Shown: one piece after another, positions 6,598 to 62,699 of the stretch
Position numbering within the stretch: the first letter of the stretch is position 1
Layout: every line of letters starts with the position of its first letter
Assembly (NCBI GenBank): GCA_028829895.1
Contig: CM054179.1
Coordinates: 70,889,391-70,953,390 of the forward strand
Source of the DNA: Sinotaia quadrata
Taxonomy: Eukaryota; Mollusca; Gastropoda; Architaenioglossa; Viviparidae
Direction of reading: 5' to 3'
DNA length: 64,000 bases
Notes under the pieces: model-generated
The model's input: the letters and a program-made list of their open reading frames with translations, nothing else
What the model was told of the DNA's origin: nothing
The model's database searches: none
Program-made: the position numbers and the translations under genes

Positions 6598-9500
6598 CTG
6601 CAAGAGAAAAAGGACAAATGCAGCACTACTGGATTACATTAATATACTAATGTATATTACAAGATGTATTAATGTGTATTACCGGACTAAATTAATGTAG
6701 TAGTGTATACATTTGGTCTGTATTAATGAACTAATTCATATTACCAAATTGTATTAAATTTTAATTAAACCATAATACTTGACTTATTAATGTACTCACA
6801 TAAGTCGTATAAATCTGGACTTTAAAAGTTGTATTAAATTATGAATCGTACAAATATGGATGTATTAACTTTTCTTTTCCATTGACTAGTTTAAATTTTC
6901 TTTAATCAGAGCATCTAACAAAGCGAAAAGTAATTTTATTAAATTAATTTCATGCATTGTTTTAAATTTATTCGTAATTATTTTAATTTAGTTTTAAATT
7001 TCTCCTTGACTTTACCAAACGTGTCATGTTCCAACGGATTCATCACCAAACTGTTTTGAATTCAAAACTGATTTTAATCTTGATTTTATAGTCATACACG
7101 TTTTTTCTTTTCCAATCTGTCGTCAATTCTACTTAACTCTTACCTGATTTTCTCCAGTCCAGTTCTGAGGATCTGTCGCTGACTCTTACCTGATATTGTC
7201 CAGTCCAGTCTATGAGGATCTGTCGCTGACTCCTACTTAACTCTTACTGATTTTGTCCAGTCCAGTCTATGAGGATCTGTTGCTGACTCTTACTTAACTC
7301 TTACTGATTTTGTCCAGTCCAGTCTATGAGGATCTGTCGCTGACTCTTACTTAACTCTTACCTGATATTGTGCGGACTGTGAGGATCTATTGCTGACTCT
7401 TACTTAACTCTTACTGATTTTCTCCAGTCCATTCTATGAGGATCTGTCGCTGACTCTTACTTAACTCTTACCTGATATTGTCCGAACTGTGAGGATCTGT
7501 CGCTGACTCTTACTGAACTCTTACCTGATACTGTCTGGACTGTGAGGATCTGTCAACAGTGAGTTTTTAGCATCAGCATCAGTTGTGAGATAACACCAGC
7601 CCTGCAAAAGAAGAAAGTCAAACTTATTTGAAGATGGAGACTAAAAAGAATTAATAAACAGTAAGTTAATAATTTTATGAATTTTTAAAAGTTGTTCGAA
7701 TAATGTCAGCATGTGTGAAAAAATTGTTTTTGCCGCAAAACATAAGGGAATTAAATCTTTTGAAATTTATCAAATGCCTTTGCAATTTGAAAGTGGTAAA
7801 ATACATCCCCGATGTATTTGCACTTTACAAAACGGGTACGTACAGGTTAGTGACATACACGTACCCCATCAAAAATAGTGATGACATCAAAATGTCACTA
7901 GAAGAAAAGGACAAGTATATTCTACTATCGATTATAGAAAGGCCAGTGATGTTGGCCCTTGGCAGGGGTTGAATTACAGATTTCATGTGATCGATGCGTG
8001 AATCGGCACCCTGGCAAGTTGTGTGGAAGACACTGTAAAATATATATTGCTCATGTCATAATAAGTTTAATGCCTGATTGAGAATAACAAGGGGAAAATG
8101 TAAGTAAAATTGGCAAATACCATGGCAAAGTTGGTAAACATTTTGGCAAAGTAGACATTCAAATCGTGATCAACATAGACATGCAAATTTGAGCAATGTA
8201 GACATAAAAAAACAACAAAGTTGAAACATATAAGAGTAAATGTTTGGGTGAGGTAAAAATACAAGAGCGAAATAGCCATACAAATACTGGAATAAATTAG
8301 ACACAAATACGTGAGTAAAGAAAACCCCAATACCTGAGTAAAACAGACTTAAAGTACCTGGGCAAAGTTGGCAAAGAACAGCTGTGGGTGTGTGAGATTC
8401 AGTCCAGGTAACAAAGGCTGTTGTGGGTTTTGACTTTGCCATTGTTCAAAGGCCTGTGAAGGTCAAAATACAAGTTTTGTATTCATCGTCGTTTCATTAA
8501 AAAAAAATGCAAAAATGAAATAAAAAAATGTTTTTATGGGTTCCGACTCTATCATTTGTTTATGTTTTTCAATTATTTTATAATTTTTGCTTTACATATC
8601 TACAGCTATTTTAAGACATTATTGCTATATATTAAAGTAAGCATGTTAAAATGATTGTCATAAAGTATTCTTAAATATAAAATATAAGCTTATCAAAAGA
8701 ATTCAGTATTTATAGAAACTATCTGATCAGATATTAATCCCTCGGAACTGAATAGATAGAAAATGAAAATTCTTTTCCTCCTAATTGAAAATCAGATTCA
8801 CTCCTTAATCTTTCAAACTTATACTATGCAATAAGTATTGAGACATATATGCACAAGGAACTCAGCACGTAGAGATTTACACAGCGCACAAAGAATTCAG
8901 ATGTATACAGACTGACACAGTGCACAAAGAACACAGATTCATAGAGACTTACAGGTGTGCACAAAGAACTAAGACACATACAGACTTAGTGCACAAAGAA
9001 CTCAGACACATACAGACTTAGTGCACAAAGAACTTGGACACATACAGATTTATACAGTGCACAAAGAACTCAGATACATACTGATTTGCACAGCTCACAA
9101 AGACCTCAGACACATACACACTTACACATGCACAATTAACTTAAACACATACACACTTACACTTGCACAATTAATTTAACATATAAAGATTCAACATACA
9201 CAATAAACTTAAACACACAGGCCTACATACTTACGCAATGTATAATGAAGTCCAACACAAAACAATTACTCACAAACACACTCAAAACAATAACATAAGC
9301 TGGGGGGGGTTTCGCCCATGATCAATTTCATTAAATTTTGCTTTTGGCATTTCCGGACAGTTGACAAATCTACATTTGTTTCATATTAATAACTGTTAAA
9401 ATATCAACATCATTAATTGTTATTACACTTTCTCGGGCGATATGATTTTTTTTCATGAAATTTCCTCTTATTCTTATAATTTGTTTGCAGCTATGCAGGT

Positions 9501-12500
9501 TAATCACTTCAAAGCAGACAAAGTGAAACTTGACGATAGAATGAAATCATTAACAAAATATATTTCACATAAAACTTTCATTATTTTAAAGTGCATTTTC
9601 CGTCTTCATGAAGACTGATTCTCATTATGCATATATATTAATTATAAGAATATATGTGTGGATGCAATTTTTACTCACATCATTGTTTGTATGCGTATAC
9701 ATGCGTGTAAATATTATATAATATAAACATGTGTAAATATATATGATATAAACATGTGTAAATATATATGTAAACATATAGAGGTTTGCTCTTTGTGATA
9801 ATTATACTCAACATATTTAAATGTAATTTTTAAAAAATCATATTAAATTTATATAGAAATGAAATTTATTAATGAATCAATAAATATAAACTTGTAACTT
9901 AAGTACCATATAGGATGCCTTGATACCGCCATTATCAGCAATGTTTTCACCAAGTGTAAGGTTTCCATTCACCTGCAACAGGAATTATATCTATCGAAAT
10001 GTTTTGAAAAGGCTTAAAGAGTCAATTCATCTGAAAATGAAGTTATACATTATACTGTTTTCAACAAGGCTTCAAGAAACACTCTTGACAAATATTTTAT
10101 GCATAAAATAAATTTTTTTAAAAAGTTATAATAATGTGTCTTATGTATTAATTGTTGAAATAATGTGTCTTAGATTGTAATTAACCTCAGTATACAAGTG
10201 GCTGAGTTAGGAACATTATGTGAAATCAATTTTGTATTTCTGCTAATTTATTCCTCCGGATGTATGCAGTTATCTTTAACAGTCGACGACTCCTGGAATA
10301 GTGTATATCAAAAGAAAGTGAAATAATTAATTATCAATTATCATAATGCTTGCAAATGTCTCATTACCATTTTAAAAATAAAAAATAAAAATTAAAAGGT
10401 TATAAATTCTGTGCAAGAGAAAACTTTGATTTGTGGTTTCATACTTTTGCTGAATAAAATGGTTGTATGTGTTTGGAAATGTTATTAAAACATTATCAGG
10501 CTTGGCATTATTTTCCAAACCCGTACACAAATTGCCCTTTATTGCCAATACTTCAGAGGACCAAAATTAGTAAATCAATAAATAATGATGATTCTTTAAG
10601 ACTGGACACGATCATTTACATTTCTTTATTACGAGTCATATTAGACTACATCTTCACATCGCCACGTATAAATACAGGGCACACCTCACTTTCGTACAAT
10701 TTTCGTACGAAACTAATGTATAAGAAAAGAGTTTAAAATAATTTAGTACGGCCTTCTCGTGAAACTAATTTACGAGTATGCCTACGGAGTTTATAATGGG
10801 ACATTAGTACGGCTTTCGTAGAAAACTAATGTATGAGTACTTTGTTTACAATGGGACATTAGTACGGCTTTCGTAGAAAACTAATGTATGAGTACTTTGT
10901 TTACAATGGGACATTAGTACGGCTTTCGTAGAAAACTAATGTATAAGTACTTTGTTTACAATGGGACATTAGTACGGCTTTCATAGAAAACTAATGTATG
11001 AGTACAGAATTTAGAATGGGACGTTCGTGCACCGTTCATATAAAAGTAATATACGAGTAGGCTTACAGAGTTTATAATGGGACTTTAGAAAGGCTTTCAT
11101 ATAAAACTAATGAACGAGTATTGATTTTAGAATCAGAATTCAGTAATTTTAGAATGGGAATTAAGTACGGCGTATATATAAATATAAAACAAATTGACGA
11201 ATACAGAGTTTAGAATGGGACTTTAGTAGGGCTTTCATATAAAACTTATGTACATGTAGAGAGTTTAGAATGGAAATTTAATATGGCCTTCATATAAAAC
11301 TAATGTACGTGTAGAGGGTTTAGAATGGAACTGTAACATGACCTTCATATAAAATGTGTCCAAAATCCAGACTGATATTTAATTTGAATTTAGAGGAAGT
11401 GACAACCATACATACTTTCCCGCCGGCAACCTCGTACTGGCTGTATTGAGTGACGTAACACTCGCTCAGCGATTGGTACTGCTCCACGGACGAATTGGAC
11501 CACCACGGCCTCAAGTTGCCTTGAGCATCTGTCTTACGTCCTTGACCGACAGCATGTCAAAATAATATATTAAGTGTCTTGCAACATGATAAATAATAAT
11601 AATTAAATGTCTTGTAACGTGAATTGGAATTATTTGCTAATTATATGTATATATTCTGACATGACATCATTATTTGCAAATACAGCGTATGTTCTGCAGT
11701 CTAAGTTACAAATTTGTGACGTTTTGGTGGGAAATGGGCAAGATGTTAATTCTCCACCACCCCAAGCAGCCCATAACCTCAGGGCTAGGCTAATCCCGCC
11801 AAACACATCTTCTAGCTCTCCACACATATTAGAAAGATGAACGATAGATAATGTAGAATAGAAGAGTGATAGTTCTAGAAGATAGCTCGAGCCCCCTGAT
11901 ACATACAGCCAGGATAGTAAGTAAATACAGGCGACATATAAGTGAGTCACACTAACACGAGGGGTCTATGTATCAACAATAATTGTATTCATCAAGAAAT
12001 AACATAAGACAGCTGGGTTACATATAGCAAATAGTTCAACAGTTACATATATATATACTCTAATTGTAACTGTTGAACTATATATATATATTATTTAAGT
12101 TCATAATCACAAACCATGTGGTTTCATAAGAGAATGTCCATTTGAGTCCAATGGCATATAAAGGTCATTACTGACTTCAAAGTTCATTACACTGTGGTAG
12201 TTATTTGGTTAATTCATATAAGCGAACTATAAATGAGTTTATAAGAGAACAATGAATGTCTTAGAGTGAACTCTAGAATACTTTGGAAGAGTTTGTCTAC
12301 AACTTGACTGAAGCTGTGTGGTTATGATTTTATAAGACATTTTATACATAGTGTTTGGTATGCCTCCAGGTGCAGTTTAAGTCTCAATGAATGTCTTTAG
12401 CAAATGCTCACATGGTCCTTAAACTGGTCTTTGGCTCATGAGTCATTCTGCTCTGGAGTGGCTTGCGGCTCAGTGCTCGTCAAACCAACATCCAAGATAA

Positions 12501-15500
12501 AGTGACATTCAAGTTAAAGTTTCAGATAAAGTCTCAGACAAAGTGCTCATCTGCCAATAAAATACATTTATGCTAAGAAATTGTCCTCATGTGTTCTCTG
12601 ACACAACTCTTACTTACATGGTCATCATACATTTAAATATCATAAGCAAAATATAACAATATAAAATAAAGTTAATGATAAGAAATAAACATGAATGTAA
12701 TATTAGTTACAAAACCACATGCCTTTGGCAGCAATATATAGAGAGGTAGATTTCCTGATGTGTTGATAACTGGAGATAAGGTTAATAGCCTGAGTATACT
12801 TTGTTAATAGTGGGACACAAATATATGTTGCTTCAAAGGTCAGCTGCATTCAACTACCTATTTACAGGTGAATATCTGGTACATTCGTTCATTTGGCTGA
12901 ATTGCAGTTTGATTGGTAGGTTTAGTGAGTTGTCTGGAACATTCAAGTATGTTTCCAGCCTGGGGATAAGGGTCAGTTGTTTTAGAAAGTATGAATATTT
13001 GGTTGACATGAGAGAGAGATGGAGGGAGAGGGTGAGAGGGAGGGAGAGCTTTTAAGTCGTATGATATGTCTTGTACAATAATAATAGACTACTAAACTCT
13101 GTTGACACGAGAGAGAGAGGGAGGGAGGGAGGGAGAGGATGAGAGGGACAGAGAGATTTTAAGTCGTTTGATATGTCTTGTACAATAATAATAGACTACT
13201 AAACTCTGTAAGCTGGAGTTTTCCTTTACAAAGTTATTGCGTGAATTCAATTAGAATATGCACATTGCTCACATATACTCGCATACTTATGCACAACACA
13301 CGCATGTGTACATACACCACACAAACACAATTACGCACAGCAAAAGAAACTTAGAGATGACAGACTGACGGATAAACAAATGGATGTCATTACCTTGATC
13401 ATCAAAGGCATGTGTAATCTCATGGCCAATCACCATACCGATTCCCCCAAACATCATGGACCTGCAAATGAAACCGAAATTTTGTTCGTGCTTGACATTG
13501 TTTGCGATCGCTGGATAAAACAATAGGACTTAGTGTTTTACGTCACGAGGCATTCCAAAACACAAGAGATGGAACATTCTGAGATAAAATGAGAACATGA
13601 GGCATTTCAAAACACAAGAGATGGAATAAACTGACGCAAAATAAGAACACAAAACACCCCAATACATGAGATAGAGAATGAACTGAGGCAAAATGAGAAC
13701 ACAAGACATCCCATTACATGAGATAGAGAATGAACTGAGGCAAAATGAGAACACAAAACACCCCAATACATGAGACAGAGAATGAACTGAGGCAAAATAA
13801 GAACACAAAACACCCCAATACATGAGATAGAGAATGAACTGAGGCAAAATGAGAACACGAGACATCCCAATACATGAGATAGAGAATGAACTGAGGCAAA
13901 ATGAGAACACGAGACATCCCAATACATGAGATAGAGAATGAACTGAGGCAAAATGAGAACACGAGACATCCCAATACATGAGATAGAGAATGTTCCGAGA
14001 CAAAGTGTTATAGTAAGCTAAAGATACACTCCAGCAAACATGTCTTCAGAAAGTGTATTCTAGATTCACTCTACTGGCTTGTTTTGACGAATAAAATTTA
14101 ATTGATTTATTTTGACTTAAAATAGTTTGTGTTGACATACATTGATGTGTGTTGACTTAAAGTGTATTGACTTACATTGGAAAATCCTCACTGTAGAATG
14201 GAGGTTGCAAAATGCCGGCAGGAAAAGCTTGACAAAAAATTAAAGAAAACAAAAACAAGCTTGAGCTAAGAAATGCGACAATGCAGGAATTAAAAAAATG
14301 ACTAAGTTCTGTATTTAGTTCTTTGTAATATATACACATATAAGATAACTAATGTCTGGTCTTTGTCCTGAATTATTTTTTAAGGTTTATATTGCTGATA
14401 GTGAGTCGGTTGCTATTAAATAGTTGGTGTTTGGAGGTTTGTTTTTGCTAGCATGTACTAGTCCTGTCAGTATGGCCATCGTTTCTGCTGCAAATATTGA
14501 CGTGTTGGCTGTGATGTTTTAGGTTAAGTTCCGTTTCGTTTTGAATGTATATCCCTATTCCTGTCTGTCTTGATCGGTCTTAATTTATATGTGGCCTTTT
14601 GCAATGCTGTCTTGATTTATTTTAATGTATTTTAAGCGTGACGTAAAGTGTGGCCTTTACAGTTAGTTCTGTGTTCATCTAAAGTGTGGCTTTTTGTAGG
14701 GATTGTCATGATTTGTTTTAATATATCAGTGGCATTTTGCACTGTTTTCTTTATTTGCCTTAACAAACCTGTAGCAATGCTGTTGGTTTTAGCATAGTTG
14801 ATAAATTAAAGTATGTATTCAAATTTGAAAAACCTGTAGCAATACTTTGGGTTTTAGCGTAGTTGATAAATTAAAGTTTATATTTAAATTTGAAAAACCT
14901 CGAGCAATGCTATGGGTTTTAGCGTAGTTGATAAATTAAAGTATGTATTTAAATTTGTTTAAATTTGAAAAACAAAACAAAAATTCTTTTACTTATCGAG
15001 TTTTCTGAAGGGGAATAAAATGCATTCACTGTTGCAGCTGAATCACTCCACCTAATTATTTTGAAAACAGAAATAATAGTTAAAATGTTAGATATATAAT
15101 ATTTAAAAAATTGGGGTTGTACCACAGAGACCTTTACAAGTATGAGAGCTCTTGAATGGTCTGAATTCTCATTTTTTTCTATTCATATTCTTGTTCAAAC
15201 ATGTACTGATAAAACAAATGTTTATAATTACTGTGTGTATATATATATATTGTATAAATTATAATGTCAGACAGGCAGACAGATAAACTATCAGATAACG
15301 ATAAACTAATAAATGAAGTATATACTGACTAATCAAATGTCACATTCAGTATTTGTGTTTTCATGCAATCGACTACAAAAATATTTAATAGTTGTGATTA
15401 ATTCAAGTATTTTGTGTTTTCATGCACTTGACACACAAATATTTAACGGTTGTGGCTAATTCAGAAGTTTAGAAACAACTTTAATTTGATTGTCTGCAGG

Positions 15501-18500
15501 TATTTAGTTGCAAAATTGCCGTTATAACAATAAAAGCAAAACAACAGAATCAATGAGCAAAGTTGATTGTAAAATACATAATGATATTTATTTTACTAAT
15601 TAAATTATTGGTATATAATTTCCTAAAACAATCTACTAGTATCCGATTTTTTTATATAAGTGTTCACTATTGATATCTTTGTGTAGTGAGACAAGATTAT
15701 ATATTTATGTTGTGGATGTACCGAGTGTGGTTGTTGTAGTTGTTCGTCATATGGGTCACTCTAGGATGCGAGGAGATGACTGGATGAACGATGACGATGA
15801 TGATAAGACAGACAAGCAGACAATACCGCTACGGCAGCCACAGCAGGAGAGAGGCAGAACACGCCACACGTGTTTTACATTTTCATCTATCTTTATTTCG
15901 GCGACACACCGCCAACAGACGACCAAGGACGACTCAGAGACAGACACTCAATCTAGTTGTTCTGCTACCAATGCCGAGACTCTAGGTGACTCTCACTCAA
16001 ACCACACACGCTCATTATATCCTATAGGAGCGGTCCTCCCCGAAGCCCACGGGTTATGAAAATGAAAATCTAGTGTGGAAAGGCTTCTAAAAATAACTTT
16101 TGTGTTTCTTTACTTGCTTTCAACTAACAATTATAGCTATACGCCTAACAATTACAAAATAATTCAAATATACAGTGAAACTACTTTAATTATACTTTAA
16201 TATACCAATCTTTTTATATATATATAATCTGAAGAATTAAACCTTTAATAAAATAAAATCTGTGTTGGCGGGCTTCAGGAAAAGCATTCACACACACATA
16301 AATTGCAAAATACACAAATACAATAACATTATTCATCATACAAAAATACATCAATTAAAAATATAAACTATTTCCTTTCTAAATATATAAATATCAACTT
16401 CACTCACTAACTACCTAAAACAATATATAACAGTAAAGGCACGCACTCTAACACAGCTAACGCCAATATAGGGCGTGCTTTAAAACAAAGGGAGTGATCA
16501 TAAACAATAAAAATACGCACTCAATGGCACAGTCATACACATTACTATATGGCTGTTAGCAAACCGCGCCGGGTGATTCAAACTAGCGGCCGATGACCTA
16601 CTTTGCTGCAGAGCGTGGGGATGCGACTATACACATACATACACGATGACACACACAAATACCTAAACAGGGGCTACATTATTCCCCCCTACTAAAAATA
16701 ATCATGGTCCTCCATGATTCGAAGGTCTAGCACACCAAAAAGTCAACAAACAAATCACTAAACATACTAAAATAATACCACTTTAACAATCTCAAATGGA
16801 AACCTTTAAATACAAAAAAATATTCTATGGTTACCTTTGAATTCTGTCCATCCAATGCTTTATACCACTACCGAGACTCACATCTGCTAAACCAGAGTTG
16901 CTTTTCGCACAATGTAGAACAATGGGGTTGCTTTTAAGCTCCTCCCCTCACTGCTACATAACCTCTAGGAGCAATGTATAATACTCACAAAATCAATACA
17001 GCATCACAGCTGTCAACTCACCAAAACTTTCCTGGAGCTTCCTCCTGCTCCTTTAAAACCTATATTGCAAACCTCAAAGGGCTTGACGCCAGTGCAGACA
17101 AGCAGGGTGCTTTTAAGCTCCTCCCCTCTTGTGCACCTACCTTGAGAGCAATATTTAAACAAAACTGCAGCATATCAGCTGTCAAAAAAAAAGAACCAAA
17201 GAAGTAACCAAAATAAATACCTTCCGAGCGCTCTGGCTCCAGTACACGTAGGTTTCCTATAACACTACTCTAATTGCATCATCGTACTACATTCAACAAA
17301 CAAAGAGACTTAACATCACATGTGCACCCATCTCAGCCCATTCGCTCTTACTTACAAATACACAGTATGGGTAAACAAATATTTGCTACACATCTAATCA
17401 GACGCGACAACACGTAACAAGAGAAACGCCTTCCAGCCGGCGTCCACAGTGACCTGACTAAAACTAGCACCATATAGACCACTCACTAGGATGCAAACTA
17501 TCTTTTGCCAAACCTCAGTGATGAACTAGGGCTAGCCAAGGAATTCTAAATTCCTAACCCAGCAAAACTCTAAAATAAAGATACAGAAATAAAACTACAA
17601 ACTGTATTACCACACGGGTCATAAGTTCTTACTTAACAAAATAGATATTGCCACAAAAACTTACATCCCACTACCTATGCAATAACATCACACAGCAAAA
17701 TAAATGCACGCCCAAATTTAGCACAATTTCAATAAACATCTGAATATCTATATATTCTTTCTTTTTTTAAAAAAAAATAACTTGAACATCATATCCAACA
17801 ATCCAAATTCGTAGTGCTGCACATTATTATCATAACATTCTGACTAAATAAATCATATATATCAACATACAAATTAAACAATCTATATAACGCATCTAAT
17901 ACTAAAAAGTCATGAGTTTAAAGTCTTTCAGATAAAAGTCATATACGTTTAAAGCCTTTCAGGTAAAACAAGTTTTTGTGACACTTCTTTTTTTTTTAAA
18001 AACTTGATCATATTCAATACAACTTTCTAATGCTGCACATTTTAGCCTAACTAAAATAATCACATAAACACACAAATTAAAATTAAAATCTACACTAAGT
18101 ACTAGCACTAAAAAGGTCACTTTGTGTCTTTCAAATAAAGCAAATGCTTGTGACACATTTTTTGTTGTTCCATTCTTCTTCTTTCTAAAAAAATGTCTAA
18201 TACCGTCCATACCTTTTTAACAAAGGGCACAAAGTTTGTGATTTATGTAGTTGAGTGAAAAATACGTCTTTAGCTTGTCCTGACCGGTTTTTTTTTTGCT
18301 GCTGTTGGTGATATCTGGCGTCCGTCATGCCACGAAGGATGGTCGTCGGCGCGTTGTTAGCGCCATGCGGTGTGCTGTCAGGGTCCGGTCGACTGCCACT
18401 GTCGTCCCCGTCTGCCATGGTGTTAATGGCTGCCATCCGTCTTCTGTGGTCCCTTAGTCGAGCCAGAAAATGTTTGGCCACGACGCCAGCGGTGTGCTTT

Positions 18501-21500: not shown

Positions 21501-23379
21501 TTTCTTACATTTTGGTATTGGAGGTCCACAGCAGTATGATTCAACTGATCGTCAGGATATCCAATCTTTTCAATGATGGCGTCTGCCTGCAGAAATATTT
21601 ATCAATGTTGAATCTTGAACCAGCATTTACCAATATTACATTAGCAATAATAACTCTGGCACCAATACTTATTACTATTACATTAACGTCATTATGTCTT
21701 GCACCAATACAGTAAAGCCTAGCGAATGCAGCAATATATACATTATGTCTTGCACCAATACTTATTACTATTACATTAACGTCATTATGTCTTGCACCGA
21801 TACAGTAAAGCCTAGCGAATGCAGCAATATATACATCTGTTTCTACTGTCCATTCGTTGTTTAACTCCATAGTGAATTACCAACAATAAATAAGACTGCT
21901 AAGCTGAATAATGGTAGGGAACAAGCTTAATCTCAAGGGGAAAAAATCTAGTTAGACCAGTGTTTCTATCTTTTCTTTATTTTCTGTTACAAGAGCTAGA
22001 CTTTACTCCTGACCTTGAAAATCTGGGCTAGGCCAGTGTTTCTATCTCATCTTCATTTTCTGTTTCTCAAGAACTCGACTTTGCTCTTTATTTTATCTTA
22101 AGCTGCTTTTCTTTAGAGTTCTATTTCTTTTTTTTGTGTTCTTTATCAACTTGTTCTACAACTATTCATTGCTATTCAAGTTCTTTGTGTTTTAAAGCTT
22201 AATCATGTCTTTTCCCTTTAAGCTCTGTCAGTCGAGAGCATAAAACTTAGCCTGGCCTTGCATCAATAAATATTGAAAAAGAATAAGTAAAGAAATAAAA
22301 TCTAGAGACACTGGGTGTATGAGAAAGTCTCGTACAAGCACGCATATTTTGACATAGTTATTGACGTCACCACTAGATCACAATAGATATTTTCCTGGAA
22401 TACAGGTCATACCGAGGTTGATCAGTTAATTTAAATGTATTTTTCATTCTGGTAATCTAACCTTGGCCATGAACAGGGGTCAAACAGAAGTATGTGCGGA
22501 AATCCCGCTGGTCCAGTTATAGTAAGCATGCTTCGGTGTATAAAGGTAGCCTTGACCATAAGTAGGCATCAATAAAGGTGTAGGGATGGGGGGGGGGGAT
22601 CGACTCCGGTGGTAAATCAGTGCTTAGTATGAATGAGTGAGCTTAATAAGTAGCATTGACCCACAGATCAGGCAGGCCAGTCTTTAAATAGGAGAGACAA
22701 ACAGGTCAGGGTGAAAGGTGCTTTTCTCAACTTGACGGCATATCTCGGGTGTGTAACGGGAGGTCCAGTATGAGTGTAAAGATAGATAGAAATCTTTATG
22801 AAATACTAGCCCAAGAAAGACTTTATTCCAAAAAAAGAGGGAATGAGATTGTGGTGGAAAATTCATGAGCTTTTAATAACGATAATAAAGATGACGTTTC
22901 TGATCCTTTTGGTTTTGCTGAATGGACAGAGGTACATGTTGCTTATTTTATAAATTTTATGGTTTAAGATTGTGTAAAATATAAACAGAATATTTTGTTA
23001 TGAGTAATTTATCCTTGTCTCTTTCAGAATAGAGAAACTGTGCTAAGAGAAAATAGATTTAGCTATTGACACAGAGCATGACCTGTTTGTATGCAGCAGA
23101 CATTGATCACTGACTTTATTAATTGCAGCTATCTGTGGCCGACACATCATAAACACAAGTGTATGTTGAGAGCGCTGAGAGACTCCACCAAGTTAAATAA
23201 AATAAGGGTACATTGGCCAGGAGTGTGAATACGGGGGGGAGGGGGATTTATAGAAAGCAAATAGGAAAGAGAACGGAAAAGAAGGAACTATGATTTGAAT
23301 AGACTTTCTGTAGAGAGAAACTAGGACCTTAGGGGATGCTAAAGTTTTCTCTGAATAGTAGACTGATGAACACTGAGAA

Positions 23380-23453
<74 letters not shown>

Positions 23454-24145: not shown

Positions 24146-24221
<76 letters not shown>

Positions 24222-27200: not shown

Positions 27201-30200
27201 TGTAGCACTGCAAAACTCAGTTTGTAGAAAGCTTACCTGTAGCACTGCAAAACTCAGTTTGTAGAAAGCTTACCTGTAGCACTGCAAAACTCAGTTTGTA
27301 GAAAGCTTACCTGTAGCACTGCAAAACTCAGTTTGTAGAAAGCTTACTGTAGCACTGCAAAACTCAGTTTGTAGAAAGCTTACCTGTAGCACTGCAAAAC
27401 TCAGTTTGTAGAAAGCTTACCTGTAGCACTGCAAAACTAATTTGGTAGAAAGCTTACTTGTGTCACTGTAAAACCCACTTGGTAGAAAGCTTACCTGATT
27501 TAACGGCTGTTCTATATCACGAAATTCTTTTGCCAGAAAGGTGGTACTAACGTCTTCTAGCAGCGTCATGATGACGTAATTACTTAACACTCTGTCAGAA
27601 CAGATATGATGAATAATTGTTTTACACTCTGTCAGAACAGATAGGATGAATAATTGTTTTACACTCTGTCAGAACAGATATGATGAATAATTGTTTTACA
27701 CTCTGTCAGAACAGATATGATGAATAATTGTTTTACACTCTGTCAGAACAGATATGATGAATAATTGTTTTACACTCTGTCAGAACAGATATGATGAATA
27801 ATTGTTTTACACTCTGTCAGAACAGATATGATGAATAATTGTTTTACACTCTGTCAGAACAGATATGATGAATAATTGTTTTACACTCTTCATCACAGAA
27901 ACGACAGGTAATTATTTAACACTGCAAACACAGAAATAATGAGTAATTGCTGAATACTGTTATCATAGAAATGAAGGGTTACTGTTTAACAGTGATTGCA
28001 CATAAATTGTAACACAGTAATAAAAATAATGACACGAATAATAAAATAAGTCCCCACGATCATAGCAAGCATAATGACACAAATAATAAAATGACGCCCC
28101 ACGATCATAGCAAGCATAATGACACAAATAATAAAATGACGCCCACGTTCAGAATAAACTTAACAACACGAATAATAAAATAACTCCCCACGATCATAAC
28201 AAGCATAATGACACAAATAATAAAATGACGCCCCATATTCATAATAAACATAATGACACGAATAATAAAATGACGACACACGTTCATAAAAAGCAAAATG
28301 ACGCCCCACGCTCATAATAAACATAATGACACAAATCATAAAATGACTGCCCCATGATCATTACAAGCATAATGACACAAATAATAAAATGATGAACCAC
28401 GTTCATATTAAACACAATGACACAAATAATAAAATGACGCCCACGTTCATAATAGGCATTAATGACACGAATAATAAAATAACAAGTCCCATGTTCATAA
28501 AAAGAAAATAAAGACACGGATAAGAAGATAAGGCGCATGATCATTAACAACATTAGGACACTGATAAAAACATTCCATGTTCATAAACAACATAAGGATA
28601 CGGATAATGAAAATCACCAAGTTCTATGTTCATAAACAACAAAAGGACACGAATAATGAAAATCACCAAGTCCCGAGGGGATCAGAGTAAAGTAATGAGA
28701 AAAAAGTAATCATTTACACCGATCAGGAATTGAAATTTGCTGAAGAATACAAGTTTGTGAAAATGATTATATAATTTTCAACAATGTGTAGGTCGCCAGT
28801 TGAAATAATCTGTTTCTAAACTACTAAGTTGTAACCAAGATATAAATACTGATGCTGGTAGAAATGCACCCATACAAATACAGTGCATGTAAATGTGCTT
28901 TCGAGAAACCGAAGTTGATAATGACACCAATCTAATTAGAAAGTGACGTGTTTAACAAGTACTGATGTTTATAATAACAAATTACTCTAAACAAAATAGT
29001 GACATACCAATCTAATTAGAAAGTGACGTGTTTAACAAGTACTGATGTTGATAATAACAAATTACTCTAAACAAAATAGTGACATACCAATCTAATTAGA
29101 AAGTGACGTGTTTAACAAGTACTGATGTTGATAATAACAAATTACTCTAAACAAAATAGTGACATACCAATCTAATTGGAAAGTGACGTGTTTAACAAGT
29201 ACTGATGTTGATAATAACAAATTACTCTAAACAAAATAGTGACATACCAATCTAATTGGAAAGTGACGTGTTTACCAAGTATTGATGTTGATTATAACAG
29301 ACTACCCTAAACACAAATAGTGACGTGCTTTCAGCATGCTGGCTGATATAAATATACAATTTTAAAACAATACTATCAGGGCACAGAATCTGACAGTAAA
29401 ATACCAATTTTAAAGCATTCTATCAACGTAATGAAGATGATATAGTGACGTAACAGTCTTTAAAAATCCTATCAAAGGCATTGCCGATAAGAGTGACGTA
29501 CCAATTGAAAAATAATCATATCAAGGTACTTAAGACGATAGTGATGTAGCCATCATTACAATTTCTATCAAGTCACTCTAGATAATGACATAATTAGAAA
29601 TTATTCCTATCCAATTGATGGTGATGTACAGTTTTAAAAACAGTCTTACAAAAGACGTCTCAACCATATATTCAAAATTAGTTATGTGGATTTATAAAGA
29701 CATAATATTTAAATAGTCATAGTGTTCTAGAGAATATCCTTATAACTGTTTATTTATTGAGGAAGAGGTATCGCATTATTTGAACATACTGAAGAGAATT
29801 TAGTTACAGACTTTTCTTCTAATTGTCTGAATAATATCTACATTTGTGAGGTATTCTGAATAATATCTACATTTGTGAGGTATTTTGAATAATATCTACA
29901 TTTGTGAGGTATTCTGAATAATATCTACATTTGTGAGGTATTCTGAATAATATCTACATTTCTGAGGTATTCTGAATAATATCTACATTTCTGAGGTATT
30001 CTGAACTAGTTTTGCCATTCCCTTGAGATAGTCTTCTGCAAAAACAGCCACCACAGTTTGGTTACTAACAGCGACACCAGCAGTTCCAAAGTATCTGATC
30101 AGGTATGTGCTCCATTCGAACTACAACAGACAAAAGGTCAGGTCAAATCAATTAGCAAACTACAACAAACAAAAGGTAAGGTCAAATCAATTCGTGAGCT

Positions 30201-31388
30201 ACAACAGACAAAAGGTCAGGTCAAATCAATTAGTGAACTACAACAGACAAAAGGTCAGGTCAAATCATGCGCAAACTTCATTACTTTTTCGTCAAAACGC
30301 ACTCTGTGCCTCACGTCCAGTCACATGTACACGTGCCTACTCAACTGCCTTTATCGCTAATCCAGTCATATATACCTGCCCTCACTGTCTCAGTCTATCA
30401 TCCAGTCACATGTGTACCTACTCCCTCCCTCAGTCTTTAGTCCTGTCGCATTCACCTTCTCACTGCCTCAGTCTTTAGTCCTGTCGCATTCACCTACTCA
30501 CTGCCTCTGTCTTTAGTCCTGTCGCATGACGCACCTACTCCCTCCCTCAGTCTTTAGTCCTGTCGCATGACGCACCTACTCACTGCCTCAGTCTTTAGTC
30601 CTGTCGCATTCACCTACTCACTGCCTCTGTCTTTAGTCCTGTCGCATGACGCACCTACTCACTGCCTCAGTCTTTAGTCCTCTTGCATGCATGCACATAC
30701 TCACTGCCTAGTCTTTAGTCCTGTCGCATTCAACTACTCACTGCCTCAGTCTTTAGTCTTGTCACATGCACGCACCTACTCACTGCCTCAGTCTTTAGTC
30801 CTGTCGCATGCACCTGCTTATTGCGGAAGCCGGAAGCGCCCCCCTACATTTTGTTACGTTACCACGCTTAATCAGTCCTTTCTGAAATCATAGCTTTATA
30901 TTTGTTTAGTTCCATAAAGATACACAACTCGTATTTAGTTCATTATTTTTACAAGTTTCTCCTAGCAGTAATTATACATACATAAGACTCACAGACACAA
31001 ATATAATTGACATTCATATATGCATAACAAATGCATGTTGTAATTAATTATTATTTTACTTATATGATATTTTAATTCTTTATGATCTAACAAGCAAGGA
31101 AAAATTTACTTAGCACAATTACACTTTAAAACTTTAAAGTGATCTCTTACAAAAGTCCTTATAAATGCATGAAATATTTATTTTGTCAAATATTATACAA
31201 TCATTACCTGAGGAATTCGATTTTGCAATTCTTCTATTGTCATTCTTTTGTAGAAATGGTCAATATTTCTGCGGTCAGTATTAGAGGCTGACATCTATAT
31301 TTAACGATACATATATTTAGATCAATATATTTCCCAAACTAGACACACAGGAAGCTGTATAGACAGACAGACAGACAGATATATATAT

Positions 31389-31469
<81 letters not shown>

Positions 31470-34400
31470 CAGATAGATAGATAGACAGATAAAAATTTTA
31501 ATTAACGTGTATCTAAGCTGATGTAACTGACTTAACAAAACTTATAACTATATTAACCAAAGGGGTCTGATTTAAAACTTTTAACTATCTTAACCAACTG
31601 GACCTGAGTCACTGAATTAATAAACACTTGTAATTATATTACCCAATGGGGTCCTATTTCACTGACTTAATAAACACTTGTAATTACATTACCCAACGAG
31701 GTCTGATTTCACTGACTGAACAACACTTATAACTATATTAACTAATGGGGTCTGGTTTCCCTGACTTAAATCTTTTAACTATATTAACCAACTGGACCTG
31801 ATTTACTGACTTATCAGACACTTGAAATTATATTAACCAACTGGACCTGATTTACTGACTTATCAGACACTTGAAATTATATTAACCAACTGGACATGAG
31901 TTCACTGACTTATCAGACACTTGAAATTATATTAACCAACTGGACCTGAGGTCACTAACTTAACAAAACACTTGTACCTAGTTTAACCAACTGGGCCTGA
32001 TTTCACTGACTAAACTTATAACTATATTAACCAAATGGGTCTGAGGACACTGACTTAAATCATAACTATATTAACCAAATGGGCCCGAAGTCACTGAATT
32101 AAGTTATATCTATAATAACCAAATGGGCTTAAGGCCACTGTTGTAACAACTGTTGTAACTGTATTATCCAAAGAGGTCTGAGGTTACTGGTTTAACAAAA
32201 CGTGACCTAGACTATCAAAGTGACTCTCTTCTTCAATTTATATGGAGGAAACTTTTTGTTTACGCTGATTTAACACTACTTGACTAAACAAACTCTTGTA
32301 TTTGTTTTAGCTTACTGGGCACACGATCATTTACTGACTTAGCAAGCAATTGTACTAAAATCATGAGCAAACTTAACAAGCAATTTAGTGTATTAGCTAA
32401 CTGGGCATATGATCACGAGTTAACTTAGCAAGCAATTGTACCTGTATTAGCTAAATGGGCATAATTTCCAGAGTTAATAAACTCGTGTGTCTGTATTAGC
32501 TAACTGGGCACAGACCATGAGTTGACTGGTCATAATTTCATGAGTTAATAAACTCTTGTGTCTATATTAGCTAACAGGGCACAAGATATTGAGTTGACTT
32601 AATAAACTCTTGTGTCTATATTAGCTAACTGGGCATAAGATATTGAGTTAACTTAATAAACTCTTGTGTCTATATTAGCTAACAGGGCATAAGATATTGA
32701 GTTGACTTAGCACACTCTTATGTATTTATTAGGGAAGTATGCAAACGGTCATGAGTTGACCTAGCAAGCAATTGTACCTACGTTAGCTAACTGAACTTGT
32801 AGTTCATTGATTTGATTTATACTGCTGTTAAGGTCAGGTGACTGCTGGGCACCCATAACTCGTAGTGCAATGTCTCTTTGGTACTGGAAATACGCCATAC
32901 GTACGGTGGAATTTTTCCCTTCCAGAAAATATTCTCTTGAAGGTAGACCAAATGCAGGCTGGTCAATCTATCATTCGCAAACATAAATTAAAAAAGAAAC
33001 TGCTAAAGAAATGCATTATTTTGCCATAAAGGACTTGTATTTGAAGCTGGCGTTCCCTTATTAGACTAATATGACAGGGATTCTAATGGATTCTATTTTT
33101 CAAAAAGATTAATGATAGGGTTCTCCTCTCCCTTAATTAATAAAGGATGACATGTTTGTATGTGAAGAATTTTAACAGGATAATTCATTTATAATAAACT
33201 TGAAATAATAAAGGTGTATTTAATTATATTTTAAAATTATAAACATGATTGGCAAACGTTTAAATTCAACATATTGAACTTTAAGCATATATAATTCCAC
33301 ATACAGAAATCAAATTAAATGATCAATTCCATGATTTCTAACGCTTAAGTTCCACATTGTGGGCTAGAAGTAAAGAACCCGTGCTTGTAGAAATCAAATT
33401 AAATGATCAATTTCATGATTTCTAAACGCTTAAGTTCCACATTGTGGGCTAAGAACCAGTGCTTGTGTACCCAGGCAATGTACTGTGAAGAATTGAGGTA
33501 ATCTTTATCTACTGTGACGTCAAACAAAGGCATGACATTTATTTCTGCTAGGTTCAACAACAGGGTTATAAAGTCCATGTTTGTGGATGTGTTCATTAAC
33601 GGCCAACCGCCCATTTTAGTCACCAGGATGCGTGCTGGCTCTGCCCCTAAGACCTCCATGGCACCTGAAACAATGAAGCAGACACCAGGATAATGGAAGG
33701 ATATAAAATGTACATGTATACACACATATTTTAACTCTTGTTCACATCTCTGGCCATATAAAAATACAAGTATTTTCTAATTAAAATTACTAGTGTAATT
33801 TTTGTATACATTGTAAATAAAACAGTTCTTTCCAGATTTTGAAAACGACTGTTTGTGGGAGCCGTGGTAACTCAGTTTAGTATATATGCATTACATGTTC
33901 TTAGAAAACCGTAATATCCATGAAATGAATATTTGTCACTTTCAATGTTGCCAGAGATATACATTTGGAACAGATTGAAGACTTAAGAGCATTTAGAATT
34001 CTAATTTTGTGACAGGTAAGATGAAGTAATGATTTCAATGAGGTAGGAGATCTACATTTGTGACAAGCAAGGTAAATACTACAATGGAGGTTAGAGATCT
34101 ACATTTGTGACAAGCAAGGTAAATACTACAATGGAGGTTAGAGATCTACATTTGTGACAAGCAAGGTAAATACTACAATGGAGGTTAGAGATCTACGTTT
34201 GTGACAAGCAAGGTAAATATTACATGTGAGTAAGAGATCTACATTTGTAACAGGCAAGGTAATGATTACAGCGGATATTTTTTAAGATGGCGTCAGCAGG
34301 CTAATAATTATTTGTTTATTTTTATTGATAAAGACTTAACTTTATGGTTAAATCGTTAATCTGAAATTGGTTTAAAAATAAATACACTTTAATTTAATGT

Positions 34401-37400
34401 GATTTTAGGACTCATTTTAAGACAAGACCAATAAGAAATTAGTTGTTTAACTTATTTTATATCCGAATAGCTTACTTTCCTTAAGATACAACTGTTAAAG
34501 ATTGAGCTTTGAATAATGGGTAGATTTGTATGGCGTCTCTCGTTAAGACATGACAAATAGATTTGAATCCTGCCTTCTTTAAGACATGACTGATATATCT
34601 CAGAGACCTCTTTTCGTTAAAACATGACTATAATAGATCTCAGAGACATCTTTTCGTTAAAACGTGACTAATAGATCTCAGAGACCTCTTTTCGTTAAAA
34701 CATGACTAATAGATCTCAGAGACATCTTTTCGTTAAAACGTGACAGGTAGATTTCATTGTATTGCTTTAGTTAAAACGTGACAGATAGATTTCATTGTAT
34801 TGCTTAGTTAAAACGTGACAGGTAGATTTCAATGTATTGCTTAGTTAAAACGTGACAGGTAGATTTCAATGTATTGCTTTAGTTAAAACGTGACAGGTAG
34901 ATTTCAATGTATTGCTTAGTTAAAACGTGACAGGTAGATTTCAATGTATTGCTTTAGTTAAAACGTGACAAATAGATTTCATTGACTAAATTGACTAAAA
35001 CATGAGAGGTTGATTTCATTGACTTACTTCAGTGAAGATATATAAGTAGATTTCATTGACTGACTTTAGTGAAGACATGACAGATAGATTTCATTGACTG
35101 ACTTCAGTGAAGAAATGATAGGTAGATTTCATTGACTGACTTTGGGTAAGACGTTGAATAAAGATCTGAATGGCCTGCCTTCATTATGACAAATAAATAT
35201 GGATGACCTGCTTTTTATAACATAAACATTTAATGGCCTAACTTCATGAAGATAGGCAATATAACTGTGACCTACTTTCATTAAGACACGACTGATAAAG
35301 TGTTTTGGCCTTCTGCTTTGCCTGGTTGTCCGTCGTCTTGTTTATTTCTTTTTCCAGTAAACCTTGAACATGAAAATCATTATTTGCAGTTTCTTAATTT
35401 CATTTACTTATTCATTTTTATTGCCTGTTAATCTTATTAATTTACTAATTCATTTCTGAACAATAACAAATATATTAATTAAAATAAAACGCAACAAAAT
35501 CTCTATTAATTACAAGAACTAAACAAAAGGAATCATAAAATTAATTCCATAACTTTTTAACCCTTTCTTTTATTAGAGCCAACAGAAAGTACAAAGCTTC
35601 GGCCTAAGTATAAGCATTAGATCAACTGAGTAATTTTTGTTTTACCTTTTAATTCCAAGGTCACATCATCACGGATTTGTTGAAATCGTGAGAGACTGGG
35701 CAAATCTTCAGGTATGGTGTGCTTCTGCAGCCAACCGCCACACGCATACTGGTAAAAGTTTGTGCATGGATCCGCTTGCAAATCCATTGCATCTAGAAGG
35801 TGGCCAGCTGCACAACACACATTTTACTGTTTGTCTATTTGTAAAACAGTTATATAGTTACAACATGGGTTTCCCTCTATTCGCTTAGCACCCATTAGTC
35901 AATTACAGTCGACCTGCAGATGTCCATTGATCAGCCACAGCTGTCCAGCATGTGGTCATTGGTCAACCCTAGCTGGCTAGCTTCTCAGGAATGCTTGCAT
36001 CATGCAAAAAAGTCATTTATCCACAACAAGATTTGAGGTGGGCTCACTCATTCAGTGGAACTTATATTATTGAATTCCTCCAGGAATGACACTAGTGTCT
36101 TTTAATTATGATAATACACTAATACACCAAGCAACGTCTAGTAATCCATTTAATTATGATACTACACCAGGCAACGTCTAGTAATCCATTTGTCATTTAA
36201 TTATGATAATACACTAATACACAATGTCTAGTAATCCATTTAATTATGATACTACACCAGGCAATGTCTACTAATCCATTTAATTATGATACTACATCAG
36301 GCAATGTCTACTAATCCATTTAATTATGATACTACACCAGGCAATGTCTACTAATCCATTTAATTATGATACTACACCAGGCAATGTCTACTAATCCATT
36401 TAATTATGATACTACACCAGGCAATGTCTACTAATCCATTTAATTATGATACTACACCAGGCAATGTCTACTAATCCATTTAATTATGATACTACACCAG
36501 GCAATGTCTACTAATCCATTTAATTATGATACTACACCAGGCAATGTCTAGTAATCCATGTGGAGGACTGTTGTTATTTTCACATTGCTTGTTTACTTGA
36601 TGAGCAGTACATGACGTCTTCCTTAAAATCAAACTGCATAAGTATCAGTTATATAAATAAGCACTCCACAATTTATCACAAAATTTTTATATCATAAATA
36701 AAAGTATAGATATGGATAGTGAAGATAGAAAAAACTAGTGACAAATAAAGGAAGGGGTGGAAATATTTGAAATAACAGTTTTTGACACATAATAGACTAA
36801 ACTCGACATTTAGGACAACGAAACACTGCTATAAATAAACATTTGAAAACTTTTATGATAAGGAAGCTTTATTGTAAATAAACATTTATGACAAGGAAAC
36901 ACTGTTGTAAATAAACATTTATGACAAGGAAACACTATTGTAAGTAAAATGTTATTACACGGAAACATTGTTTCTGTTTTCCTCTTCAAAATAATGATGT
37001 TTCTGTGAATGTGATATTTGCAATATGAATGGTTATTTATTCACGAAGATTATCTGACTGTTGATAACAGTGAGAGTATGTATTTGAGTAAGAAATGTTG
37101 AGTTTGTAAAATATTAAAATATATATCTTAAGTGTATAAACTAATAAAATTATGTGGAAAAAAATGATAATTATAGAAAATATAATTTGATATAGTAACT
37201 GAAGGCCATTTCAAAACCGCTTTTTATACTGCAGGCAAAAAGAAGAGAAACACAATTAGCTATCTCCGTTTGTCGTACTGCTTTGAGTGCTTGTTGATTA
37301 CACTCTCCTTATAACAGACACACAACAATAACAAATGTAGCATCTTGTAACATAGACTTTATAACACACCTTGTAACAAAATATTTTAACAGACTAATGC

Positions 37401-40400
37401 ATATAAATCTTGTAATACATATCTTCAAATATTTCTTGTGCAACACAACCGTGCAACACATACTTTGTAACACATACTTTGTAACACATACTTTGTAATA
37501 CATACTTTGTAACACATACTTTGTAATACATACTTTGTAACACATACTTTGTAACACATACTTTGTAACACATACTTTGTAACACATACTTTGTAACACA
37601 TACTTTGTAACACATACTTTGTAACACATACCTTGTAATGCACATGCCGCTGATCCACAAATTTGCGGATCTGAAAACAAAATTAGACAAGGTGTATTTT
37701 CTTTTCATTTTATTTTTCCATTGGTCACAAACGTTATACATTAAATAAAATGTTTAGTTTTACAAAAAATACAAGGGTTGAAATAAATGTACAGTTTCAA
37801 AGTGAAACTAATATCGCAACAATGGAGTCTTGCCATGAAAATCTGAGCTCTGTGTTTTGAGATGATGTGAACACTCATGAAACTGATCACGGTCACTTTG
37901 TTTCCGAGTTTGTTATTAACATGGAGGTTTTTTAAAAAGTATTTTGACACTGATGATAAATTGTCCACGTCACTTGCTTTTGATCTTGTAAGAGTTGAAG
38001 AGGTACTTTTCTCCTTAAATATTTTGGCCTCATATACTAATTTTCCTCAGGACTTGGCTTTTGACCTTGGTAATGTTAAAAATCCAGATATTTACGACTA
38101 ACAAGTACAGTGAGTTTCCCTCTCCCCCCCCCCCAATATAGAGACAATGGTATATTAATTTGTGCACAGGACTTAGCTTTGACGTTGATATACTATTTTT
38201 TTAATAAATATATATAATACACTAATTTAACTTGACTTTGACGTTCATATATTAATTTGTTCACTAGACTTAGTTTGACCTTGTTATACTAATTTGTTCA
38301 CAGGATTTAATTTGACCTTGTTATACTAATATGTTCACAGGACTTAATTTGACCTTGTTATACTAATTTGTTCACTGGACTTAATTTGACCTTGTTATAC
38401 TAATTTGTTCACTGGACTTAATTTGACGTTGTTATACTAATTTGTTCACAGGACTTAATTTGACCTTGTTATACTAATTTGTCCACAGGACTTTACTTTG
38501 GTAATTTAAGAATGTGAGTGCCAGAAGATAAGCTGAAGCTGTTGTCAGGAATGTATTTAGGTGAAATCGGATATTTCGAACCAGATGGAGTCAAAGTACT
38601 ATAACTGATAGGATTCATTGTGTTTTCAATGATCATCAGTATTTTGGAGAGCTCGAAGTAAGATCCTTGTCGCAGTGCCTGGCTTTGGATTCGAAACGAA
38701 CCTCTGCAAGTAATAGACTGTTAACTAGTTTTAATCTGACAAGTCGCGCCGTAATCATCAATTCATACAAGTTACGTTACAGTTATTAGCTCACATTATT
38801 TTGAGAAGACCTTTTATTACTCATTCATTATTTGTTAATTGATTATTACTTAATTATTATTGTTATGTTATTCTAACGGAAATGGTCATTATTATTAACT
38901 ATTAACTGATGTCATTTCTTAAGCCTGAATATTTGTGTACCTTACAACTCTGAAATAATGTTTCAGAGAATTACCTAAGGTTTACATTTTTCAATGTATA
39001 CAAATTCATTGAAAGAATGAACGAACATATAAAAAATAACCCAGTTATTTTATAACAAGGGTATGCATTGAAAGAGTGAACGAACATATAAAAAATAACC
39101 CAGTTATTTTATAATAAGGGTATGTCGTCAACCTGTGAGAGAGAGAGAGTCACGTACCTGGCAGAACCCGGTAACACATACAAAGACCAGATGAGACTTG
39201 ACAAGTTCTGTTAATACCCGAGCACGTGACCAGGCCTGATAACTCCAAACAAAACCTTGTATCACATGACAGTTACGTTAGTAGTACTTAACATAGGCCT
39301 TGTATCACATGACAGTTACGTTAGTAGTACTTAACATAGGCCTTGTATCACATGACAGTTACGTTAGTAGTACTTAACAAGAGGCAATAAGACTTAACAG
39401 TGAGAAGATCTGGAAATATATGCTCCAAGAACAATGTTAAGTAGGCGTCAGGTTGTGACCGCCCAGTTCCAGGTGCATGCATAGTGAATAAAGTGAAAAA
39501 TAATGTCACGTTTTCCCTTGAAACTCATGAAATTACTAATTCACACATTGTGAATAAATTAAAGAACACTACAGTGTTTTCCCTAAAACTGACAGAAAAC
39601 ACGTTTCATGAAATTACTAATTCACACATTGTGAATAAAATAAAGAACAATACATTTTTTCCCTAAAACTGATAGAAAACATATTTCGTGAAATTACTAA
39701 TTCACACATTGTGAATAAATTAAAGAACTATACCACATTTTCATTTGAAGTGTATAGAAAACGTTTTCTGAAATCGCTAACACCATTAAGTTAATTTAGA
39801 GGAAATTAATGAATTTAATTCAAAAGATTAGTTAGGCTTGGATGAGTTGATTGAGTTAATATTAAAAGAAAATAGGGAATTTAATTAAAGATTAATTAGG
39901 TTATCCAGAGTATCACACGGACAAATAATATTTTACAGAACTGCAATTGGCTGCCGCAGTCTGGAAAGAAAAAAGAAAAACATAATTTAATTAGGTTCAA
40001 TCCTTATTCAAATATCACCTCAGTTTTAGTCTGGATTCAAGGCTATGTGACAGAAAGGCTTCAAGGAGATAAAAAGTAACTCACCTGAGTGGGTTCTTTC
40101 CTCAGTCGGATTTGGTTCAGTACTTTCAGTAAGTTTGATGGCCAAGGTCACGGCCAAGGCCACAGTAGCAGCGATGAAAATAATAGACACGATGAGTAGA
40201 CATCTCTCTTTGTTTATGCGTGTTGCCTTCCACTCAGAGTAGTTTTCTTTTCCTGGAGACTCATTAAAGGATTCACGGGTCTTCTTGTCTGATACACTAC
40301 TTTAAAAAAAATGTATTCATCTGCATTTTCTGGTGCTCTGGGGCATATGCAAGCTTAATGCATATTTGTACACAATTCATACATACTTACAGATACACAT

Positions 40401-42295: not shown

Positions 42296-42343
<48 letters not shown>

Positions 42344-62655: not shown

Positions 62656-62699
62656 ATAGCGGCTCATTGGTGTTCTACAATGTGCAGGTGAAGAACTGA

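Follow-up and report, generated by a model that had tools for sequence, protein, structure and literature searches.

Splice-junction minisatellites in an M13 metallopeptidase gene of Sinotaia quadrata: mirages as probable by-products of ordinary tandem duplication

The stretch of DNA analysed here (the window, 64,000 nt) spans positions 70889391-70953390 of contig CM054179.1 in the genome of the gastropod Sinotaia quadrata (assembly GCA_028829895.1), and it contains, on its minus strand, a gene for an M13 metallopeptidase of the neprilysin/ECE-like type, introns of which carry minisatellites whose units repeat the neighbouring splice junction. With their splice sites as predicted, these arrays have the structural features of the "mirages" of amphioxus, described as minisatellite-like tandem duplications across exon-intron boundaries, both 5' and 3', with units of 10-160 bp (PMC3087553); a name thus exists for them, although the initial annotation of this DNA knew of none. 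They are probably by-products of ordinary short tandem duplications that happened to straddle splice junctions, the copy nearest to the exon being the one predicted to be used and the others ignored. The direct basis for this explanation is the position and coverage of the arrays, the local character of the units of two of them, the fixed reading frame of the protein, and rates at junctions that lie near those of ordinary intron points.

The gene lies at 6498..42418 of the window (positions below are those of the window) and consists of 22 coding exons and 21 introns, all of the latter being GT-AG; the joined coding exons form an open frame of 755 residues, and the product contains the Pfam domains Peptidase_M13_N and Peptidase_M13. 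The best three relatives among the matches listed were two proteins from Littorina saxatilis (50% identity over 95% and 49% over 96%) and one from Batillaria attramentaria, both species being caenogastropods. The Batillaria protein (P0003) is devoid of 43 residues matching exon 11 (129 bp), through exon skipping, loss or an annotation gap. Arrays called by Tandem Repeats Finder (TRF; period of at least 8) occupy 36% of the window; within the M13 gene, they take up 33% of intron and 3.9% of exon sequence. This coverage is uneven, ranging from 11% to 57% among 8-kb parts of the window, and in the M13 paralogs L002-L021 (20 stretches of 10 kb) it goes from 5% to 36% per stretch, with a mean of 16%.

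Each of the 42 junctions of the gene was represented by a query of 30 exon and 25 intron bases, aligned to at most 900 bases of its own intron, and block-shuffled introns served as the control. Eleven of the 42 exceeded z = 4 (range 4.8-22.8) and had two or more matched bases on each side, and a TRF array holds the best match for ten of these eleven, the exception being donor 5. Seven of the positive junctions copy 12-28 exon bases, namely the donors of exons 3 (14 bases), 5 (25), 7 (12), 9 (19), 20 (18) and 21 (28) and the acceptor of exon 10 (24); the other four, donors 10 (3) and 16 (4) and acceptors 9 (3) and 11 (2), share only 2-4 exon bases, with 24-25 intron bases matched to the array. 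A mirage-type unit spanning the boundary, with at least 12 exon and at least 21 intron bases inside a TRF array, was found at 6/42 junctions (donors 3, 7, 9, 20 and 21 and acceptor 10), so that boundary duplication occurs on both the 5' and the 3' side; other genes likewise show donors and acceptors. The copy of the end of exon 5 comprises 25 exon but 3 intron bases and lies outside any TRF row. Array calls by TRF vary with the strand run: in the minus-strand run arrays span 7/42 junctions (donors 3, 9, 10 and 21; acceptors 9, 10 and 11), and donor 7 is spanned in the plus-strand run only, where its array extends 10 bases into the exon. The clearest junction copies are those of exon 21 (unit of ~57 bp, with 28 exon bases plus the donor) and of exon 10 (37-bp unit, with the acceptor plus 24 exon bases).

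The initial annotation had placed such arrays at exons 3, 5, 7, 9, 10, 11, 20 and 21, and more weakly at exons 6 and 16, each starting at the splice site and with units of 14-58 bp copying the exon edge together with the donor or acceptor. The unit lengths agree with those given by TRF (about 14-57 bp). Arrays at or near the junctions were recovered, with z > 4, for exons 3, 5, 7, 9, 10, 11, 16, 20 and 21, in weakened form for 5, 11 and 20, and acceptor 9 was added; at exon 6, exon copying is nil and no array lies nearby. Many arrays do start at the splice site, but that of intron 5 begins ~140 bp into the intron, with its best match ~775 bp in, and the best match of exon 20 is also distant from its donor. 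Copying of the exon edge is extensive at the seven junctions with 12-28 bases and limited to 2-4 bases at the other four. The arrays, all on the minus strand, are the following.

7130..7529 (-): array at the donor of exon 21 (exon 7525-7601), unit ~57 bp; best copy with 28 exon bases plus donor (z 22.8), and 4 further intact donors; sole place in the genome.
8103..8342 (-): intron 20, two short diverged arrays, 8106-8152 and 8280-8342.
8106-8152 (-): location of the best copy of the exon 20 donor (18 exon bases; weak, z 4.8), ~205 bp distant.
8280-8342 (-): array beginning 15 bp from the exon 20 donor.
14100..14161 (-): short array 14 bp from the donor of exon 16 (exon 14176-14227), with 4 exon bases in common.
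24770..25137 (-): 24-bp array adjoining the acceptor of exon 11 (exon 24644-24772), with 2-3 exon bases in common.
27185..27497 (-): 37-bp array adjoining the donor of exon 10 (exon 27495-27591), with 3 exon bases in common.
27568..27889 (-): 37-bp array at the acceptor of exon 10; unit made of the acceptor plus 24 exon bases; sole place in the genome.
29826..30005 (-): 29-bp array at the donor of exon 9 (exon 29987-30120); the donor is copied together with 19 exon bases.
30118..30267 (-): 39-bp array adjoining the acceptor of exon 9, with 3 exon bases in common.
32356..32791 (-): diverged array of ~54 bp at the donor of exon 7 (exon 32782-32967); 12 exon bases copied.
34579-35134 (-): ~38-bp array in intron 5 which, with a match just beyond it (34473-34500), copies the end of exon 5 (35276-35362), 25 exon and 3 intron bases.
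37455..37638 (-): 14-bp array at the donor of exon 3 (exon 37632-37670), 13.1 copies; decoys mostly AAA/GTATGT versus the true AAG/GTATGT (the slash marks the boundary).

A donor apparently equivalent to that of exon 5 (...LYxSCLN) is spanned by an array in the paralog A62 (C3:62.16-62.21 Mb), possibly by chance.

When the genome (984 Mb, 26 contigs) was searched with the arrays of the exon 21 donor and of the exon 10 acceptor, each returned its own position only, which suggests that, as far as a genome search can see, they are not members of a dispersed family. A single spreading repeat family was rejected on this basis, and the earlier statement that the units do not derive from one such family holds for the two arrays searched.

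Many of the copies constitute potential splice sites. GT is kept in 13/14 copies at donor 3, 5/5 at donor 9, 7/7 at donor 10 and 4/4 at donor 21, and AG in 3/3 copies at acceptor 9, 7/7 at acceptor 10 and 6/10 at acceptor 11; GT is lost at donors 5 (0/5) and 7 (0/8), whose copies, chosen as elsewhere by flank identity, have diverged. The copy scan found 0 copies for donor 20, and the arrays of intron 20 contain no clear decoy donors. Thus, the rows of decoy sites expected initially lie beside the true site at seven junctions (donors 3, 9, 10 and 21; acceptors 9, 10 and 11), but not at donors 5, 7 and 20. At donors 9, 10 (6/7) and 21 and at acceptors 9 and 10, the copies reach the score of the true site. 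Among 63 copies at nine junctions of the gene, 37 have offsets not divisible by three and would shift the frame, and 22 of the remaining 26 would add an in-frame stop; only four, all at donor 3 (offsets 42, 84, 126 and 168), are safe in both respects, leaving 59 that would disrupt the coding sequence in one way or the other. An in-frame stop follows the true donors 5, 7, 9, 10, 20 and 21 within 1-75 bases, and donor 3 at 320, and one precedes acceptors 9, 10 and 11 by 3, 80 and 18 bases, respectively. At the nine introns checked, the alignments to the two Littorina proteins (P0001 and P0002) have no gap within 6 residues, and that to the Batillaria protein has one, which stems from the absent 43 residues matching exon 11. 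Considering frame, stops and gap-free alignments together, it is the exon-nearest copy that gives the conserved protein, and this copy is therefore predicted to be the splice site in use, the others being ignored.

The junction matches are strong in comparison with shuffled sequence, yet not clearly special in comparison with ordinary intron positions, the control that had been proposed with the initial annotation. When the z > 4 version was applied to intron positions, the window gene gave 11/42 versus 6.1-8.7 expected (P 0.05-0.25), or 7/42 versus 5.0-8.2 when at least 6 or 12 exon bases were required, and 17/96 junctions were positive in all, versus 11.4-14.8. The window gene had first been picked for its arrays, and a fair test is provided by 216 junctions of other genes, 54 from three M13 paralogs and 162 from myosins and chaperonins, which make 258 with the 42 of the window gene. 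In the paralogs, 36 pairs of neighbouring exons yielded 27 modelled introns, 8 being skipped because of protein gaps and 1 having no valid pair of sites. The myosin and chaperonin exons (55/80 and 33/51 listed matches, respectively) provided 176 exon ends and 162 junctions, 14 ends having no candidate site; these sites were assigned with a simple consensus score and may in some cases be wrongly placed, and inspection covered the seven positives described below. A fourth M13 paralog (D79, with 5 non-overlapping matches) and kinesin exons were left out of the junction sample.

Array coverage shows no peak at junctions. In the M13 gene it is 0.18 within 20 bp of a junction and rises up to 0.37-0.47 beyond 150 bp, and in the three paralogs it is 0.08 near the junction and up to 0.16-0.23 beyond 60 bp. 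The cleanest null, to which most weight is given, is the edge-rate profile, in which array edges falling in the last 30 exon bases are compared with those 15-400 bases into the intron. The ratio of junction to inner intron was 2.75 for the window gene (P 0.024), 1.47 for the 216 other junctions (P 0.17) and 1.83 for all 258 (P 0.020); with looser array calling, the values were 2.13 (P 0.031), 1.19 (P 0.22) and 1.35 (P 0.055). The two- to three-fold ratio of the window gene is inflated because this gene was picked for its arrays. When all TRF rows were counted, the window gene showed no significant excess over random intron points (7/42 versus 4.40 expected, or 3/42 versus 4.42 if at least 6 exon bases were required), nor did pseudo-junctions reveal one in the three M13 paralogs (4/54 versus 2.92) or in 67 myosin and chaperonin exons (3/125 versus 4.44). 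The pseudo-junction test with looser calling gave 12/42 versus 7.5, 7/54 versus 5.7 and 11/125 versus 11.5 for the three samples, and a self-duplication control gave fewer positives than expected (10/96 junctions versus 15.3). Over the other nulls the range was 0.3 to about 5-fold in the window gene and 0.6 to 2.4-fold elsewhere. Junction arrays therefore occur at about the rate of arrays in ordinary intron, perhaps up to two-fold above it, and outside the window gene any preference for junctions would be weak, at most about two-fold.

Mirages recur in the genome. With strict calling they were found at 3/54 junctions of the M13 paralogs and at 7/162 of the myosin and chaperonin genes, the latter seven being genuine junction copies on inspection, so that the extension to other genes suggested with the initial annotation did reveal further cases, with an edge-rate ratio that is not significant. 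Two of the seven (L095 and L098, at C5:83.31 and 83.36 Mb) belong to neighbouring myosin paralogs and likely represent one inherited case: they have a common acceptor mirage in 55-bp TRF rows of 2.1 and 6.1 copies, respectively, and it is likely that gene duplication can pass on a mirage, whose copy number may subsequently vary. Another myosin gene (L030, C6:65.65 Mb) has a donor mirage of 12.9 copies, most of them with an intact AGAG/GTATGT; since its unit length of 27 bp is divisible by three, it is a good place to seek in-frame alternative donors.

These observations can be integrated by assuming that short tandem duplications, like those covering a third of the introns, would by chance straddle a junction. 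Duplications within exons would be purged, since they break the protein, and those straddling a junction could persist, as the outermost copy keeps the frame and the extra copies only lengthen the intron. Copy number would then likely grow by slippage or unequal exchange.

Several results weigh against chance straddling as the whole explanation. Array density multiplied by unit length predicts 5.07 cases against the 11 seen in the four M13 genes (2.73 against 7 in the window gene), although this crude expectation was replaced by empirical pseudo-junctions, whose outcome varies with the definition. Since long-period rows widen the counting interval and so raise the expectation, the pseudo-junction test was repeated with merged arrays, and edges 3-30 exon bases in were then found at 7/42 junctions of the window gene versus 1.47 expected, a figure that becomes 2.22 if the exon side is to be array-free. 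In other genes they occurred at 10/216 junctions versus 4.93 or 5.12 (P 0.03-0.04), or versus 4.1-5.8 across nulls (P 0.01-0.07); before 21 exons were added, the figure was 6/179 versus 3.53. Matches with 2-5 exon bases are in excess in the window gene alone (4/42 versus about 0.4), an excess noticed post hoc and in a single gene. Moreover, use of the exon-nearest copy is predicted from the protein frame. Junctions might thus be preferred birthplaces of minisatellites, for example through breaks linked to transcription or splicing, with the junction seeding the array. Such a preference would account for the edge ratios of the window gene and of all 258 junctions, for the merged-edge count elsewhere (10/216 versus 4.9-5.1) and for the seven mirages at 162 myosin and chaperonin junctions, in genes not chosen for their arrays, even if two are likely of one origin. 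However, coverage drops towards junctions, the edge ratio outside the window gene is not significant with either calling, the paralog, self-duplication and myosin/chaperonin nulls give no significant excess, and the window gene was selected for its arrays, so that we consider this explanation unlikely. The repeated, independent amplification of junctions proposed initially was accordingly not borne out, with edge rates at the 216 other junctions being 1.2-1.5 times those of inner intron and coverage falling towards the exon. It is also doubtful that junctions are about two-fold preferred birthplaces, with splicing or transcription seeding the duplication and several percent of all junctions carrying competing sites resolved purely by exon proximity.

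The junctions sharing few exon bases invite a different explanation, in which arrays born in the intron expand to the exon, where selection stops them, and their copies overwrite and supply the intron side of the splice site, so that copying would run from array to junction. Donors 10 and 16 and acceptors 9 and 11 have the expected form, with 24-25 intron but 2-4 exon bases shared where about 0.4 such junctions among 42 would be expected, and TRF edges lying 2-5 bases into the exon are similarly numerous (4/42 versus 0.2-0.8), but there donor 21 replaces donor 16, and donor 21 truly copies 28 exon bases. The TRF class shows no excess in other genes, at 0/216 versus 0.83-0.89 with strict and 2/216 versus 2.8-3.4 with looser calling, and the explanation fails for the seven junctions whose arrays or matches copy 12-28 exon bases; it is therefore improbable. 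There is still less to recommend the view that the arrays are kept by selection as redundant or regulatory splice sites, giving isoforms or buffering, even though many copies retain GT or AG and score as high as the true site, and a human precedent exists in the IFI6 minisatellite, whose repeat units act as splice donors (PMC4526556). Over 16 junctions in six genes, the core GT/AG letters survive no more often than the rest of the unit (146/182 versus 1282/1479), and there is thus no sign of splice-site preservation; no GT remains in the copies of exons 5 and 7, and just 4/63 copies avoid both a frame shift and an in-frame stop. Selection of this kind is very improbable, and the suggestion that the arrays buffer loss of the true site found no support. 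Finally, repeats may be collapsed or expanded by an assembler, tandem arrays being hard to assemble, and the mirage of amphioxus BflGb6 seemed aberrantly assembled in a draft genome (PMC3087553). Here, the contig is chromosome-sized (146 Mb), the units differ among themselves and exon-copying arrays recur in unrelated genes, and an artefact was judged the least likely of these explanations. By-products of ordinary tandem duplication thus remain the probable nature of the junction arrays.

Other features of the window lie apart from the splice junctions. In intron 14, direct repeats at 15705-16682 and 18632-19607, 99.5% identical over a 978-column alignment, bracket an element of ~3.9 kb (15705-19607), an arrangement suggestive of a recent insertion flanked by long terminal repeats. 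The stretch 58368-59161, with inverted CAGGGGTCTCCAAAC-like ends and within a long ~30-bp array, resembles what we take, from the motif, to be a hAT-type element. At about 49780-50985, on the minus strand and apart from the M13 exons, there is a coding-looking stretch with a cysteine-rich MASRDCLHPADSFCYVCG-like start, possibly a domesticated or mobile-element gene. Two very long non-coding arrays are found at 43243-44667 (35 bp x 40.7 copies by TRF) and at about 61987-62660 (~39-bp unit, read from the sequence).

Among known systems, the closest are the amphioxus mirages, reported for Adh3 and the globins BflGb6 and BflGb9 (PMC3087553), with TnC and PGBD5 as further cases (PMC3902484). Their units measure 10-72 bp in Adh3 and 150-160 bp in the globins, and many copies keep AG/GT (PMC3087553, PMC3902484); RT-PCR (reverse transcription followed by PCR) suggested that regular splicing is undisturbed, and a path to intron gain was proposed (PMC3087553), normal splicing of lancelet mirages being reported in both works (PMC3087553, PMC3902484). 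The arrays described here share with them tandem units spanning the boundary on donor and acceptor sides and the presence of AG/GT in many but not all copies. In contrast with what the accessible parts of those reports describe, the present ones are found in a gastropod genome, have units of 14-57 bp, affect 11/42 junctions of one gene, have a rate measured against ordinary intron, and are known from sequence, where the amphioxus cases also have RT-PCR and length-polymorphism data. Among the features of mirages is length polymorphism or somatic instability. No mirage report on a mollusc was found among the matches listed in searches of open-licence literature. In human IFI6, two downstream repeat units serve as splice donors and give isoforms (PMC4526556); there, as here, the repeat unit carries the donor at the end of an exon, but repeat donors are reported as used in IFI6, whereas nearly all copies in the M13 gene (59/63) would alter the frame or introduce a stop if used. 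Intron gain by tandem duplication, reviewed with potato RdRp, ATP2A1 and fission yeasts among its examples (PMC4974935), likewise involves DNA bearing splice signals duplicated in tandem, with the difference that duplication creates a new intron in those systems and the M13 gene arrays sit in existing ones. Human variable tandem repeats that modify gene structure, with units of ~30 bp, also include minisatellites at exon-intron boundaries (PMC2812944); these, as far as the available text goes, are paralogue-specific and reported to lengthen exons or introns or to form new introns. Work on exon definition predicts that, when introns are long, the site nearest across the exon is chosen (PMC9225289), and the mirages offer a natural splicing experiment in which near-identical donors or acceptors lie side by side while the protein frame tells which must be used. 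Thus, what was already known, from the accessible literature, is that mirages exist in a few lancelet genes, and what is new is their recurrence in a distant gastropod genome, across genes for M13 peptidases, myosins and chaperonins, where they can be counted against ordinary intron (edges 3-30 exon bases in, by strict calling, at 7/42 junctions in this gene and 10/216 elsewhere) and thereby shift from a curiosity to a measurable background of dense minisatellite birth.

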